Source of the DNA: Helcobacillus massiliensis
GTDB taxonomy: Bacteria; Actinomycetota; Actinomycetes; Actinomycetales; Dermabacteraceae
Direction of reading: 5' to 3'
Assembly: GCF_014191425.1 (NCBI RefSeq)
Contig: NZ_JACHWP010000001.1
Span: forward strand, 248,001 to 312,000
Length of the DNA: 64,000 nt
A program made the position numbers and the translations under genes. Below the pieces are notes generated by a model that was not told where the DNA came from, did not search any database, and saw only the letters and a program-made list of their open reading frames with translations. Positions 16,698-27,312 of the stretch are shown piece by piece; position 1 is the stretch's first letter; each line of letters starts with the position of its first letter.

Positions 16698-16713
16698 CAT
16701 AATGGGACCCATG
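16698..16713 (+). promoter_or_regulatory. Leaderless promoter of mtrA
   Basis: CATAAT (16698-16703) is followed by 7 nt and then ATG at 16711, with no ribosome site. This decides the start: the in-frame ATG at 16702 overlaps the -10 box and is unlikely to be used. Confidence 0.6.
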
Positions 16714-17391
16714 AGCACTTCACCCAAGGTCCTCGTGGTCGATGATGATGCGGCCATCGCCGAGATGGTCTCCATCGTTCTTACCGGCAAGGGGTTCGAT
16801 GTCACCACCGCAGCGGACGGGAATGAAGCACTCGACGGCTTCGAGGACGGCATGTACGACGTCGTCCTCCTGGACCTGATGCTGCCGGGGACCGACGGCA
16901 ACGAGATCTGCCGCCGCATGCGCGAGGTCTCCGGTGTTCCCATCATCATGCTGACCGCCCGCAGTGACACGAAGGACATCGTGGAGGGTCTGGAGGCCGG
17001 AGCCGACGACTACCTGACGAAGCCGTTCGATCCGGACGAACTGGTCGCCCGCATCCGCGCCCGTGTGCGCCGGCAGGAGGAGCCCGGTCCCGAAACGCTC
17101 AAGGTGGCGGACATCGTCATCGATGTGGAGGGCCACCGCGTGTGGCGCGGGGAGGAGCGCCTGCCGCTCACCCCCCTCGAGTTCGACCTCCTCGTGGCGC
17201 TGGCGCGCAAGCCGTGGCAGGTGTTCAGCCGCGAGGTCCTGCTGCGCGAAGTGTGGGGCTACCGCCACAGCGCCGATACCCGCCTGGTGAACGTGCATGT
17301 GCAGCGACTGCGCGCCAAGATCGAGCTCGACCCGGAGAACCCGCAGATCGTGGTGACGGTTCGTGGTGTCGGATATCGAGCAGGAAAGTAG
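16711..17391 (+). CDS. mtrA: Response regulator MtrA
   Basis: 226 residues. OmpR/PhoB family: receiver domain with acidic DDD (11-13), phospho-acceptor D55 (DVVLLDLMLPG) and the PFDPDELVARIRA end, then a winged-helix DNA-binding domain ending VNVHVQRLRAKIE and VRGVGYRAGK. MtrA controls cell-wall hydrolases, osmotic response and replication-linked division in actinobacteria. mtrB overlaps its 3' end by 29 nt. Leaderless start. Confidence 0.96.
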   Translation: MSTSPKVLVVDDDAAIAEMVSIVLTGKGFDVTTAADGNEALDGFEDGMYDVVLLDLMLPGTDGNEICRRMREVSGVPIIMLTARSDTKDIVEGLEAGADDYLTKPFDPDELVARIRARVRRQEEPGPETLKVADIVIDVEGHRVWRGEERLPLTPLEFDLLVALARKPWQVFSREVLLREVWGYRHSADTRLVNVHVQRLRAKIELDPENPQIVVTVRGVGYRAGK

Positions 17392-18976
17392 CGCCCCCCT
17401 CGGACGCTCCGGCAGGCGTCACTACCCCCACTGGCCGCTGAGCGTCCGCGTTGCGGTCATCACCCTCGTCCTGTCCACCATCGCGATCACCGCGGTGGGC
17501 GGCTACCTCTCCACGGTCATCGCCGACGGACTCTACGATCAGCGCCGCGACCTCGTGTTCGAGCAGACCGAGCTCGCGCGCAGTTCGCTGACCCGAGAAC
17601 TGCGCAGCTCGGTGGGCAGCAGCCCCGGTGAACGCCAGGACTCGGTCGCCCAGTTCATCCAGTCGCTGCGCACCGAAGAGCACGGCCCGCTTTCGTCAGC
17701 GGCGCTGCTGCCGGTGGATGAGGAGTCCACCATGTCCACGATCTCCACGGACCGCGCGGTGATGGACTACGTGGACCCCGAGCTGCGAGGGCAGCTGTCC
17801 GGTTCCACCGGGTCGATCGTGCACCGCAACGTGAAGCTGAAGGACGGCACCCCGGGAATGCTGACCGCGGTGCGGATCAGCGTGCCCGGATCGGGATCCT
17901 TCGACCTCGTCATGCTGTACTCCTTCGCGGAGGAGCAGAACACGCTCTCGTTCATGCGGCCCGTGCTGCTGACCGGCGGCGCTGTCATCATGCTGCTGCT
18001 GCTCGGCATCACCATCATCATTGCGCGCATGCTGAAGACTCCGCTGGGGCGGGTCGCGAACGCCGCTGAGCGCATCGCCGACGGTGACCTCGACTACCGC
18101 ATCGACGTGCGCGGCGGCGACGAGCTCGCCACCGTGGGCACTAGCTTCAACCGGATGGCGGAGTCCCTGCAGGAGAAGATCACGGACCTCACGGAGCTGT
18201 CCCATGTGCAGCACCGCTTCGTCTCCGACGTCTCCCATGAGCTGCGCACCCCGCTGACCACCATCAAGATGGCGGCGTCCGTGCTGGATGCGGAGAAGGA
18301 CTCGTTCTCCCCGACCATCAGGCGCACCACACAGCTGCTGACCGACCAGGTCAACCGGTTCGACCACATGCTGGCGGACCTGCTGGAGATCTCCCGCCAC
18401 GACGCGGGAGCCGCGATCCTCGACGAACGCGAGGAGAACCTCAGCGATGTGGCCCGCTCCACGGTAGAGCTGCTGAAGCCGATCGCTGACGAGGCGGATT
18501 CGGCGTTCTGCGTGAAGTGGCACAAGGAGCCGATCCTGCTGCAGATGGACTTCCGCCGTATGGAGCGGATCGTCCGCAATCTGCTGGTGAACGCGCTGGA
18601 GCACGCGGAGGGCGGCCCGGTGGCGGTGGAGACCGCGTCGAACGAGAAGTGCGCGGCGATCATCGTGCAGGACTTCGGCGTCGGCATCTCCGAGGAGTCC
18701 GCGCGCCATGTCTTCTCCCGGTTCTGGCGAGCCGACCCTGCGCGTTCCCGCACGCTCGGCGGTGCCGGCCTCGGCCTGTCGATCGCGGCGGAGGATGCTC
18801 ACCTGCACGGTGCCTGGCTGGAGGCGTGGGGCCAGGAGGGCCGCGGCGCCGTGTTCCGCCTGACGCTGCCGAAGACTCCGGACGCATCCGTGGACGATTC
18901 CCCTCTGGCGCTGCGGCGGTCATGGGAGCTGCCGGACGACGGCGAGTGGGTGGGCACTCCGCGGGAGATCGGATGA
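17363..18976 (+). CDS. mtrB: Sensor histidine kinase MtrB
   Basis: 537 residues. Two membrane helices (about 29-53 and 199-223) flank an extracytoplasmic sensor of about 145 residues. HAMP follows, then the dimerisation helix with phospho-acceptor H292 (SDVSHELRTPLTT). The ATPase domain has NLLVNALEHAEGG, QDFGVGISEE and GGAGLGLSIA. GTG start within mtrA. The lpqB remnant starts in the ATGA of its stop. Partner of MtrA. Confidence 0.95.
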   Translation: MVSDIEQESSAPLGRSGRRHYPHWPLSVRVAVITLVLSTIAITAVGGYLSTVIADGLYDQRRDLVFEQTELARSSLTRELRSSVGSSPGERQDSVAQFIQSLRTEEHGPLSSAALLPVDEESTMSTISTDRAVMDYVDPELRGQLSGSTGSIVHRNVKLKDGTPGMLTAVRISVPGSGSFDLVMLYSFAEEQNTLSFMRPVLLTGGAVIMLLLLGITIIIARMLKTPLGRVANAAERIADGDLDYRIDVRGGDELATVGTSFNRMAESLQEKITDLTELSHVQHRFVSDVSHELRTPLTTIKMAASVLDAEKDSFSPTIRRTTQLLTDQVNRFDHMLADLLEISRHDAGAAILDEREENLSDVARSTVELLKPIADEADSAFCVKWHKEPILLQMDFRRMERIVRNLLVNALEHAEGGPVAVETASNEKCAAIIVQDFGVGISEESARHVFSRFWRADPARSRTLGGAGLGLSIAAEDAHLHGAWLEAWGQEGRGAVFRLTLPKTPDASVDDSPLALRRSWELPDDGEWVGTPREIG

Positions 18977-20100
18977 GGAGCCGGGGCCTGACCCGCCGCG
19001 GCGCGCTCACAGCGTTCGCAGCGGCTGCGTCCGCTTCCGCGGTCGCCCGCCAGTTCCTCACGCCCGAAAAGGCCCGCACGTAGGCGCCGGACACGGAGGT
19101 CTTCGTCCATGTTCCCAATGAAGAACCGGTGATCTCGCAGGTCGACACCTCCACCGTGGAGGTGACGCTGACGGCGGTGACCCGCGTGGACTCCTCCGGT
19201 GTGCGCACCTGGCTCCTGGATGGGGAGCCGATGCGATACACCCTCCATCTGACCCGGGTCGCCGGACAATGGCGGATCGCGGACCCGCCGGACATGGTGG
19301 TCATCTCGCAGGCCACCTTCGACCTTCTGTGGACGCCGGTCAGGATCGCATACCTCGACCCGACCCGCACGACTCTGGTGGGGGATCTGCGCTGGTTCGT
19401 CCAGGCCCGCGCTGTGGACCGGGTGGCGCAGGCACTCGGCGGCGCGCCGCTGTGATGGCGGTTCGCGAGAGCGGTGACGGGTACAGCACGCTGTCCCTCG
19501 TGCCCGCCTTCGCCAAGGACTGCGTCATCGCACCGGTGGGGTCCCCTCGGTCCTCGACCGCGGCAGCGCTCACGCCGGACCGCCGGACCCTGCTGACGGG
19601 GTCGACCGACGGTCGCCTCCAGCGCAGGGAGGCGCTGACCGGGCAGGCGTTGGTGCCCCCATCGGTGGACCAGTTCGGGTGGATCTGGACCGCGGACTCC
19701 GAACGTCCCGGTGAACTCCTCGCCGTGAACGAGTCCGGCGGGGCGGAGCATTCGTCTGCGCTGCTGAACCTCGCCGACGGCGACGAGATCTGCAGCGCCT
19801 CGTTGGGGCTGGGCTCCACGCAGCTGGCGCTGCTGATCAAACGGGACGGCCGGCTGCTGCTCGGTGAGAGCGCGGTGGTCCGCAGCCGCAAGGGTGATCC
19901 GATCGGCCTGTCCACGGTCCAGACGATGCCGCTGCCGGTGAACGGCTCCGGTGAGCTCTGCTGGTACTCCAAGCAGGCGATGATCGTGTTCGTGCCGGCA
20001 GCGGAGGGCCAGAGTCCGCAGGCGATCATCTGGGACTCCACGCGGGGCGTGCAGCGGGTTCCGCCGCCGCCTCGCCGCACCCCGGTCCGCGCCTCAGCGC
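18973..20100 (+). pseudogene. lpqB: Disrupted lipoprotein gene lpqB
   Basis: Overlaps mtrB by ATGA, the normal place of lpqB. Three pieces are visible. 18973-19083 encodes a twin-arginine-like signal (MRSRGLTRRGALTAF) joined directly to VARQFLTPEK, and has no lipobox cysteine, then TAG. 19084-19455 continues in the same frame with EVFVHVPNEEPVIS, RVAGQWRIADPPDMVV and LVGDLRWF, matching the LpqB N-terminal domain, then stops. From 19455 another frame carries propeller-like segments (AAALTPDRRTLLTG, GWIWTADSERPGELLAV). The GerMN domain is mostly missing. The 3' boundary is approximate. LpqB normally modulates MtrB. Confidence 0.75.
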
Positions 20101-20166
20101 TGTCCACACGTCGAGTCGTCCCCAGAAGGGCCGGCCGCCGCGCGCCGCCGTGCGCGCCGAGCCAGC

Positions 20167-21078
20167 ATGATGCTCATGCATGCCACCACCCACACCGTTC
20201 TGCGGTCCCTCGCCGATGTTCTGCTGCCGACGGCCTGCCCCTGCGGTGTCGGCGGGAGGGTGTTGTGCGCGGACTGCGCCGCGGTGCTCGAGATGGGCGC
20301 CGAGCGGGTCGATGACCGGCTCGACGCCCTGCAGCTCGCCGTCCCCGATGAGCTCGGTGAGCATCGCGGAGCCGTGTCGTTCAGACCCCGCATGCCGGTG
20401 GTGGCGGCGGGGGACTACACGGCCCGACTGCAGGCACTGGTGCTGGCGTTCAAGAACGGTGGCCATTTTGCGCTCGCGGAGCCGTTCGCCCGCAGTCTGC
20501 TGGATCCGGCGCGGGAGCTGCTGCGGCACGGTGGTGTGCTGGTGCCGGTGCCCTCGAGCGGGGCGGCGGTGCGCCGACGGGGCGAGCAGCACACGCAGCT
20601 CATTGCGGAGGCGCTGGGGGAGTCCCTCCGGACACCGGTGGTGTCGTGCCTGTCGCTGCCGCGGGCGAGCGGGGCGCCCGCGGGGCTGCCGGGAGGTGCG
20701 TCGGCTGCGCGCTCGGGTGCTGCCGTGGCAGCACGGTCGGGTGGTGCTGTGGCGGGCCGACGGGTACGGAATCGGCGGGAGCGGCGCCTGTCCGGCGGAA
20801 TGCGGGTGAGCGGCCGCGCCGTCACCCGCGCGCTCGGATCCTCGCACTTCGCGGCAGAGGCGAGGAGCGCCGCCGACGAGGCGAGAAGTCCGACGACCGG
20901 GACATCGCGGAACGCGCCAGGGCGGGGCCCGTCCGTCGTGCTGGTGGATGACGTCGCCACCACCGGAGCAACCCTCGCCGCCGCCGCGGATGCGCTCGAA
21001 GCGGCCGGGTGCCGCGTTCTCGGCGCTGTTGTCGTGGCGGCCGCACAGCGCGTCGGGCCAACGTCCGTCAGGCCGTGA
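20167..21078 (+). CDS. comF: ComF family phosphoribosyltransferase-like protein
   Basis: 303 residues. An N-terminal zinc ribbon (CPCGVGGRVLCADC) and the C-terminal PRPP-binding motif VVLVDDVATTGATL define ComF/amidophosphoribosyltransferase-like proteins; ComF takes part in DNA uptake in competent bacteria. LVLAFKNGGHFALAEPFA and VPVPSSGAAVRRRGEQHTQLIA are the other family blocks. A long Ala/Arg/Gly-rich insert lies around 190-255, making it longer than usual. The order lpqB-comF-hpf-secA is conserved. Start could be either of two nearby ATGs. Confidence 0.85.
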   Translation: MMLMHATTHTVLRSLADVLLPTACPCGVGGRVLCADCAAVLEMGAERVDDRLDALQLAVPDELGEHRGAVSFRPRMPVVAAGDYTARLQALVLAFKNGGHFALAEPFARSLLDPARELLRHGGVLVPVPSSGAAVRRRGEQHTQLIAEALGESLRTPVVSCLSLPRASGAPAGLPGGASAARSGAAVAARSGGAVAGRRVRNRRERRLSGGMRVSGRAVTRALGSSHFAAEARSAADEARSPTTGTSRNAPGRGPSVVLVDDVATTGATLAAAADALEAAGCRVLGAVVVAAAQRVGPTSVRP

Positions 21079-25128: not shown

Positions 25129-25542
25129 TCAGCCGACGTCCAGGACGACCACCTTCCAGCGTCCGCGGCGCAGCTCCCAGCGCATGACGACCATGCGGCT
25201 GCGGTGGGAGTCGCTGATGACGGCGTTCGCTTCGACCGCGGTGTCGGTGACGGCGCAGAAGCGGACCCCGCCCACGCGGATGCGGGCAGCGGTCCTGACT
25301 CCCCGCTGAGCGGCGACATCGGCGATCAGCCGCGCCCGCTCATGCAGGCGGCGGCGAACCTCGAGGTCAACGATCTGGTCCAGGCTCGTCAGCGGGCGCT
25401 GGCCGAGGATCACTTCAAGCGCGTTGCGCGCGACAGCGGTGACGGCGCGCTCCCCACTGTCGGGGTCGGCGAACGGTCCCGACGGGGCCAGCTGATGGCT
25501 GGGACGAGCTGCGGGCGTGGAGGAGATCGGGGCTGTGGACAT
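25129..25542 (-). CDS. Rv3235 family protein
   Basis: 137 residues. The N-terminal 40 residues are disordered (Ser/Pro/Ala). The core reads AVARNALEVILGQRPLTSLDQIVDLEVRRRL and ends VVMRWELRRGRWKVVVLDVG, as in the actinobacterial Rv3235 group found next to secA. The fold resembles small alpha+beta binding domains. Function is unknown. The LysM gene lies 23 nt upstream on the same strand, so the two probably form an operon. Confidence 0.75.
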   Translation of the reverse strand: MSTAPISSTPAARPSHQLAPSGPFADPDSGERAVTAVARNALEVILGQRPLTSLDQIVDLEVRRRLHERARLIADVAAQRGVRTAARIRVGGVRFCAVTDTAVEANAVISDSHRSRMVVMRWELRRGRWKVVVLDVG

Positions 25543-25565
25543 GATGCGGATTCCTTGTCGTCTCG

Positions 25566-26522
25566 TCAGTCAGCAGGAGTGATGGTGGGGGCGGCCGCCG
25601 AGGGAATGTGCAGCTCATCGCCGGGGTGGATCAGATCCGGATCCTCGATGCGGTTCTCCGGGTCGGCGGCGATCTGCTCCACGAGGGCAGCGATGTCGGC
25701 GTCGTCGGCGGAGGGGCCGAGGGTGTGGGAGGCGATCTGCCAGAGGGAGTCGCCCGGGCGGACAGTCGCGGTGGTGCCGGGTGCGGGCGCGTCGGATGCC
25801 GGCGCCGGGGTGCGCGACTCAGAAGCGGGCGCCGGCTCGTCAGGAGCAGGTGTCGGTGCTTCAGTGGCGGGTGTCGGATCTTCAGGGGCGCGTGCCGGCT
25901 CATCGGTGGACGGTGCCGGCTCATCACTGGCCGGTTCGGGCGCATCGCGCGCGGGCGCGGGTGCCGGCGGCGGTGCATCCGCGGGGGCGTCCGGCGGTGC
26001 GCTGGCGGAGTCGTGCTGGGGCGCCCACCCGATCTCGAGGTCGTCCGCGTTCAGATCACCGTCCTCAGCAGAGCCGTCGGCGGAGTCATCCGCTGCGGAC
26101 TGCTCCGAGGGCGTCGACCAGCCGAACCCACCGGACGGTGCCGGGGCGGGTTCTGCGGCCACAGCCGACACACTGAACGCGACCACGCTGCCCGCCGCGA
26201 GTCCGGACCCGACCACAGTCTTGGCGAGTCGTGGAGCAATGACCCGCAGGGCACCGAAGCTGATGCGGCCGGCGGCCGAGCCGGTTCCGAACACGCGGGT
26301 CACCGCGATGAGGGCCCACACGAGGGCGAGGTACGCGGCGCAGACTCCCAGCGCAGCCGCTGCAGCGGCCAGGAGCCCAGCAGTGAGCTGCTGGATGCGA
26401 TCGGACTCGGCGACCAGAGCGCCCTGCGCAAGTGCGAACACTGTGCTGCTGACGCTCAGAACGGCAGCGCCGGCGGATGCGGCGATGGCGGTCCCTCGCC
26501 CGTGGTGGTGCTGGTGGTCCAT
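25566..26522 (-). CDS. LysM-domain membrane protein
   Basis: 318 residues. ATG at 26522 with a GAGGGGA ribosome site; an in-frame start 54 nt upstream has none. Two or three N-terminal membrane helices (AAVLSVSSTVFALA, LLAAAAAALGVCAAYLALVWALIAV, SGLAAGSVVAFSVSAVAAEP) are followed by a long Pro/Ala/Asp/Ser-rich repeat spacer (about 120-250), then a LysM domain (ATVRPGDSLWQIASHTLG ... LIHPGDELHIP) for peptidoglycan binding. It probably spans the wall from the membrane. No catalytic domain. Confidence 0.85.
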   Translation of the reverse strand: MDHQHHHGRGTAIAASAGAAVLSVSSTVFALAQGALVAESDRIQQLTAGLLAAAAAALGVCAAYLALVWALIAVTRVFGTGSAAGRISFGALRVIAPRLAKTVVGSGLAAGSVVAFSVSAVAAEPAPAPSGGFGWSTPSEQSAADDSADGSAEDGDLNADDLEIGWAPQHDSASAPPDAPADAPPPAPAPARDAPEPASDEPAPSTDEPARAPEDPTPATEAPTPAPDEPAPASESRTPAPASDAPAPGTTATVRPGDSLWQIASHTLGPSADDADIAALVEQIAADPENRIEDPDLIHPGDELHIPSAAAPTITPAD

Positions 26523-26576
26523 GGGAATCCCCTCTGCGGCGGGTGCCGGTGGGATGCTGCCCCGCGCCGACACCAT

Positions 26577-26727
26577 TCATGCTGTTTGATGCAGTTTGAT
26601 AAATATTGGTCCTGTTTGGAATGTGATCATGAGGTTAGATCCACATTGAGGGGGTCGCAACCGCTTTGCTAACATTCGTGAAAACTCGTAGGCGGACAGG
26701 CCGCCCTCGCCGACACCAGGAGCTGCC
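26577..26727. promoter_or_regulatory. AT-richer divergent regulatory region with phased GTTTGAT repeats
   Basis: GTTTGAT starts at 26584 and 26594 and GTTTGGA at 26614, i.e. spacings of 10 and 20 bp on one helix face. For the rightward gene, TTGAGG (26646-26651), 18 nt and TAACAT (26670-26675) form a plausible promoter, with AGGAG before the GTG at 26728. The repeats lie where a regulator of the leftward LysM gene would bind. Confidence 0.5.
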
Positions 26728-27312
26728 GTGGTTGAACCGGCCGGTGACGCACACCAGCCCCGCCGACACCGTCGTCGTCCACCGGGTTCGTCCGTCAGCG
26801 GTGACGAGCGTCTGCAGGATGTCGCTGCCCAGCTGCAGCACGCCTCGCAGCTCGATGCGCGCCGCAGCGCCCGTGAACTCGCCCGCCTGGAGCGCGGATC
26901 GATCGGGCTCGCTGACCGCTTCGCCGGCAATGGGGGCACTCAGGTGCGGCTCACGCTCATCACTGGGGGAGTGCTCCGCGGCACGGTTGCGGAGGTCGGC
27001 GCCGACTGGGTGACGATCTCTGACGGGGACGCAGCGACGCTCGTGCGGATGGATGCAGTCCAGATTGCGACAGGTCTGTCGCAGCGGTCCCGCGGGGCCG
27101 ACGGGTTCGACCGCCGTTCACTGCGGTCCGTTCTCAGTGACTGGGAGGAGAGCCGGCGGGCCGTTGTGGTCGCAGCCGGGGTGCAGACGCTGCGCGGCAG
27201 AATCGCTGCCGTGTGGGCGGATCACCTGGATCTGCGGGGCGATCAGCGCGGTGCGGACCTCCTTGCGATCCCGTTCTCGGCGATCGCGACGGTCGCCTCA
27301 GTCAGCAGATGA
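26728..27312 (+). CDS. Conserved hypothetical protein with Sm/SH3-like barrel segments
   Basis: 194 residues from GTG with an AGGAG site. The Arg/Pro-rich N-terminus is probably disordered; LARLERGSIGLADRFAG precedes a beta-rich unit TQVRLTLITGGVLRGTVAEVGADWVTISD, and a similar segment QTLRGRIAAVWADHLDLRG follows near the end. This looks like two small beta-barrel units, as in Hfq/Sm-like or KOW-like folds. I do not recognise a named family. It overlaps the convergent HTH gene by 15 nt. Confidence 0.6.
   Translation: MVEPAGDAHQPRRHRRRPPGSSVSGDERLQDVAAQLQHASQLDARRSARELARLERGSIGLADRFAGNGGTQVRLTLITGGVLRGTVAEVGADWVTISDGDAATLVRMDAVQIATGLSQRSRGADGFDRRSLRSVLSDWEESRRAVVVAAGVQTLRGRIAAVWADHLDLRGDQRGADLLAIPFSAIATVASVSR

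Follow-up and report, generated by a model that had tools for sequence, protein, structure and literature searches.

A probable lpqB pseudogene beside conserved mtrA and mtrB in Helcobacillus massiliensis

The genome of Helcobacillus massiliensis very probably carries, on the evidence of its sequence, a true pseudogene of lpqB between an intact mtrB and a comF-like gene. The locus lies in the window, a 64,000-nucleotide stretch (positions 248001-312000 of C1, a 1.2 Mb contig) of a draft assembly of 2.62 Mb in 28 contigs that is reported as 99.89% complete. MtrA, MtrB and LpqB are said, following Hoskisson and Hutchings in 2006, to make up a three-component system of actinobacteria, in which the lipoprotein LpqB partners MtrA and MtrB, a pair that signals at the cell envelope. 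As in that system, the window has its genes in the order mtrA-mtrB-lpqB-comF, with both MtrA and MtrB conserved, but its LpqB is a remnant from which, as encoded, no exported lipoprotein is possible. The loss is real and probably recent: of a conserved set of three partners, LpqB has gone while MtrA and MtrB are kept. As a process this is ordinary gene loss and not a new system; as a natural genus with conserved MtrAB and no LpqB, it is a moderately interesting test case for a kinase evolved without its partner.

Results

Four lesions in the lpqB remnant

Gene order at the locus is phosphoglucomutase/phosphomannomutase-like, mtrA, mtrB, lpqB remnant, comF-like, S30AE ribosome-associated protein and secA, the last label being our own reading of the protein translation. 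The features central to the argument are the following:

16711-17391 (alternative ORF start 16702), plus strand: mtrA, response regulator, intact; NF040689, 361 bits, cut-off 300
17363-18976, plus strand: mtrB, sensor histidine kinase, intact; NF040691, 543.9 bits, cut-off 450; HAMP, HisKA and HATPase_c
18973-19083, plus strand: lpqB remnant, 5' stub of 36 codons, then TAG at 19081; without the lipobox Cys
19084-19455, plus strand: lpqB remnant, N-domain and first part of the GerMN region, ending with TGA at 19453; NCBIfam LpqB model NF010139, E 3.5e-19 for 19084-19452; alignment
19449-20085 (ends approximate), plus strand: lpqB remnant, beta-propeller in a different frame; Pfam LpqB propeller Gmad1, E 2.3e-12; profile positions 307-539 of 571; alignment
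20167-21078, plus strand: comF-like flanking gene; Pribosyltran, 34.1 bits; TIGR00201, 43.4 bits, cut-off 233.55; synteny as in relatives

The ATG at 18973 overlaps the mtrB stop, an arrangement that would be expected of a translationally coupled gene. Translation from this ATG gives a basic-hydrophobic stub and then LpqB-like sequence, with the TAG (19081-19083) and the TGA (19453-19455) in the same frame; the propeller-like sequence carries on in another frame, in ORF 19269-20315, whose match covers Gmad1 positions 30-217 of 251 and lacks the end. On the NCBIfam LpqB model, whose cut-off is 802 bits, the remnant pieces reach no more than 68.7 and 30. Judged by these matches, the LpqB homology of both pieces is beyond chance. 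A sequence-only reading had described lpqB as broken between mtrB and comF, with a signal-peptide stub joined to a mid-domain segment, an in-frame TAG at 19081, a second stop at 19453 and a frame change into propeller-like sequence. Translation, HMM and profile matches and the alignment bear out each of these points, and a comparison of the frames with LpqB models, which that reading had proposed, finds NF010139 and Gmad1 matched by separate pieces.

A1, a profile and alignment of 10 LpqB proteins with 571 positions, matches the window in two pieces only, positions 71-228 (window 19000-19476, with one TAG and one TGA inside) and 307-539 (window 19401-20111), and no single uninterrupted LpqB reading frame is present; positions 1-70, about 229-306 and 540-571 are absent from the remnant. 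The first lesion has removed about 65 N-side residues, counted against the relative L036, between the signal-like stretch and a VARQ motif. With this stretch has gone the lipobox Cys, invariant across the 10 LpqB proteins of A1, whose absence the earlier reading had also reported. The second is the TAG at 19081, which falls on a Trp column without any variation, both among the 10 aligned sequences and across 23 from the family. In the third, most of GerMN is deleted and the frame changes, with the TGA at 19453; the GerMN region keeps roughly 35 residues at its beginning, ahead of the propeller start, so that the earlier claim of a missing GerMN region holds for most of the domain and not for its beginning. 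The fourth, not listed in that reading, is the loss of 30-40 residues from the propeller C-terminus. All four lie within 1.2 kb, and two of them amount to roughly 0.2 and 0.3 kb of missing sequence. Elsewhere in the genome no second LpqB propeller, LpqB profile match or GerMN match was found, and the Pfam model Germane has no match at E 1 or better in the whole genome.

Conservation of MtrA and MtrB

MtrA keeps the acidic pocket, the phospho-acceptor Asp, the Thr and the Lys; of 47 aligned rows, which represent 46 genomes with G002 appearing twice, only that of G008, discussed below, lacks the Asp. For MtrB, comparison was made with relatives drawn from 33 fetched loci, namely 32 stretches around mtrB from relatives and one distant locus. 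At the lpqB position 30 of the 33 carry an ORF that is 350 codons long or longer; in two (L045 and L062) the frame starts further upstream, and L056 ends at the contig edge. The reference set consists of the 23 same-family loci with a script-picked lpqB ORF and excludes these three and the order-level loci. Window MtrB retains 114 of the 124 columns that are invariant among the 23. The same test on taxa with an intact LpqB gives changes that range from 0 of 124 columns (L044) up to 34 of 158 (L052), with L047 in between at 10 of 134. Mean identity of the MtrB extracellular domain to the 23 relatives is 0.354, slightly below the 0.362-0.372 of genus g6; the ATPase domain, at 0.648, is also below g6 (0.672-0.688), and the remaining MtrB domains are above it. 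Relaxed constraint on the extracellular domain after loss of LpqB was considered and is not supported, the conserved columns being without clear excess change.

LpqB across the family and order

Among 47 genomes of the family, 44 have one LpqB match free of internal stops (counting G002 and G062, in which the match covers only part of the profile), two have none (G065, 74% complete, and G008), and the window genome alone has its match in broken pieces. The window thus holds the sole broken lpqB of its family. G008 presents a different arrangement: mtrB and lpqB are absent and mtrA adjoins comF.

L075:5895-6599 (G008:C3), minus strand: orphan mtrA of G008

In the protein encoded by this orphan the phospho-acceptor Asp is replaced by Glu, the sole such row of the 47. 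Because its genus mates G005, G010 and G012 keep LpqB, the loss in G008 is a separate event. Whether the Glu might act as a phosphomimetic is uncertain, since the Asp-to-Glu form of Streptomyces MtrA retains only partial DNA binding or, by another study cited in the same source, none (PMC13189361, consulted in part). The available part of PMC9045223 describes the making of MtrA phospho-site variants, and its title states that mutating the site abrogates the role of MtrA.

Over the order, we searched 297 genomes for MtrB with NF040691 (E up to 1e-70) and for LpqB with A1 (E up to 1e-5), scoring at most four candidates per genome. MtrB was over the cut-off in 267 and LpqB was matched in 268. By the complete positive lists, 266 genomes have both (the window remnant counted), 28 neither, one MtrB only and two LpqB only, the last being G046 (89% complete) and G084 (73% complete). 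Among the 281 genomes with a completeness of 90% or more and a contamination of 5% or less, 22 are without MtrB and 23 without LpqB. Up to 23 candidates each were rechecked in the 28 LpqB-negative genomes except G008, which was scored in full, and no LpqB emerged; a recheck for MtrB in G008 and G038 gave nothing better than E 6e-35. The single genome with MtrB and no LpqB match, G076 (23 of 47 candidates scored), has a long antisense ORF after mtrB (L076:75-3830, G076:C234); in this 1060-contig assembly the absence is either an assembly gap or a second case of real loss.

Of the 28 genomes without both proteins, 21 belong to family f4; the others are G008 and six genomes with a completeness under 90% or a contamination above 5%. 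MtrA was searched for in 19 of the 28 (E up to 1e-70) and found over its cut-off in two (G164 and G008) and under it in one (G219). Within f4, 21 of 23 sampled genomes lack MtrB and LpqB, while G054 and G246 keep both; in the 14 f4 genomes checked, no match to MtrA reached E 1e-70. This absence runs counter to a published claim that conservation is nearly universal. The operon is normally conserved, but the earlier description of mtrAB-lpqB as highly conserved has to be qualified, because these searches find neither MtrB nor LpqB in 28 of the 297 genomes. In general, MtrB and LpqB are retained or lost jointly, and an LpqB remnant beside an intact MtrAB pair is an uncommon natural version.

These double absences bear on the likeliest alternative, that with LpqB the system has begun to disappear altogether, as it may have done in relatives without MtrB and LpqB. 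The 28 genomes, among them G008, which is of the same family and has lost mtrB and lpqB while keeping an altered MtrA, make this a real possibility, though one towards which we do not lean: the changes of window MtrB at 10 of 124 family-invariant columns are in no clear excess over taxa with an intact LpqB. A broader proposal joins the two cases, such that MtrAB of this family would be turning repeatedly into a signal-independent regulator, through loss of the LpqB brake with a working MtrB in the window and through loss of MtrB and LpqB with the Asp-to-Glu change of MtrA in G008. We regard it as speculative and rather improbable.

Age of the loss

The remnant is little eroded outside its lesions. 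GC contents at the three codon positions are 0.69/0.48/0.86 and 0.68/0.55/0.90 for the two pieces, compared with 0.67/0.46/0.90 for mtrB. When LpqB identity is regressed on MtrB identity (253 pairs), the window has a mean residual of -0.023, and 23 intact relatives range from -0.027 to +0.031. At highly conserved columns the remnant retains 28 of 40; L052, for example, retains 40 of 50 and L047 36 of 45, in counts for which their congeners were left in the reference. Because codon bias and identity are so little eroded, the loss was probably recent relative to the genus and would date from long after the genus diverged from its relatives.

Such slight erosion would also suit a lesion confined to this isolate, with lpqB intact in the rest of the species. 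The genus is represented by one genome, and a scan of genome contigs with MtrB for a closer relative returned two loci only, one distant (39% identity) and one a weak kinase match (24%). The several accumulated lesions, however, would suggest more than a single event in culture, and we consider a strain-level origin unlikely.

Split lpqB genes in other genomes

Other faulty copies of lpqB exist in the order. Of the LpqB carriers with weaker matches or several pieces, 40 were viewed match by match, and among the matches listed at least five other MtrB-positive genomes have lpqB in different-frame pieces: G171 (locus L123), G292 (L124), G166 (L125), G234 (L126) and G273 (L127). In all five nearly all profile positions are kept, with no stops inside the pieces and no domain loss, and they may reflect sequence error or young decay; L123 contains 15 N. 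Among the matches listed, the window is the sole case with large deletions and internal stops.

The five genes, one of them beside a run of N, show that frame faults in lpqB arise in assemblies of this kind, through error or decay, and the window genome is itself a 28-contig draft known from its assembly alone. Yet an artefact that dropped or altered bases of a gene intact in the cell is highly improbable here, because four separate lesions of differing kinds fall within 1.2 kb, on a nearly complete assembly and a contig whose neighbouring genes are open, and because the five other cases, unlike the window, are nearly whole. An equally slim chance attaches to a short LpqB still working as two separate proteins, from ORFs of 108 (19129-19455) and 348 (19269-20315) codons: both pieces have coding bias and recognisable sequence, but neither begins, by eye, with a signal peptide or lipobox, the longer ORF starts out of frame with LpqB and has lost the propeller end, and a split form, had relatives shared it, is found in none of the other 44 family genomes, whose matches are uninterrupted.

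Discussion

Decay of lpqB as a true pseudogene is thus the reading we prefer. The ancestor would have had the standard mtrA-mtrB-lpqB-comF order; lpqB would then have taken at least four lesions, namely an N-side deletion that included the lipobox, a nonsense codon, a GerMN deletion with a frame change and a C-terminal loss, and mtrA and mtrB would have stayed conserved during its decay.

Published work, cited here from portions of each paper, assigns LpqB a role at MtrB, in a direction, activator or brake, that is disputed. LpqB attaches to the part of MtrB outside the cell and has an influence on how MtrA is phosphorylated (PMC3353115), and is termed a likely periplasmic modulator (PMC12338722). 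In M. smegmatis it lowers MtrB activity and its loss leads to filamentation, whereas deletion in S. coelicolor has no visible effect (PMC5845573). Silencing in M. tuberculosis causes growth arrest and raises the MtrA regulon MtrB-dependently, and the study reports LpqB as an MtrB-dependent brake (PMC9159947); overexpression in Actinoplanes brings no significant change (PMC10714768). The earlier reading predicted that losing LpqB should alter cell-wall regulation, a prediction for which the effects described in these species are not uniform. From these effects in other species, MtrAB of the window may now be a plain two-component system, its kinase lacking an extracytoplasmic modulator and its MtrA output less restrained, a reading that we hold as quite possible, if tentative.

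As the parts consulted describe them, laboratory deletion and silencing strains of M. smegmatis, S. coelicolor and M. tuberculosis (PMC5845573, PMC9159947) likewise have MtrAB without LpqB function, but the loss in the window is a natural one, made up of several lesions in a natural genome. Tropheryma whipplei is named, in the passages available, as the sole actinobacterial exception without the cluster (PMC2991359, PMC10714768); LpqB is absent from both, but the window retains MtrA and MtrB. A narrow search for lpqB as a pseudogene or lost gene found no broken lpqB described in the portions of the literature that it reached.

Flanking genes

A codon-usage gene call found mostly open genes in the window, which speaks against wide decay of the stretch; this is a rough check, since the call missed comF and left a gap at 25414-27297. 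The overlooked comF-like gene has a middle that is rich, by eye, in Ala, Arg and Gly. The gap follows secA and has no clear gene call; it contains a minus-strand ORF (25569-26576) with a LysM match of 25.4 bits.
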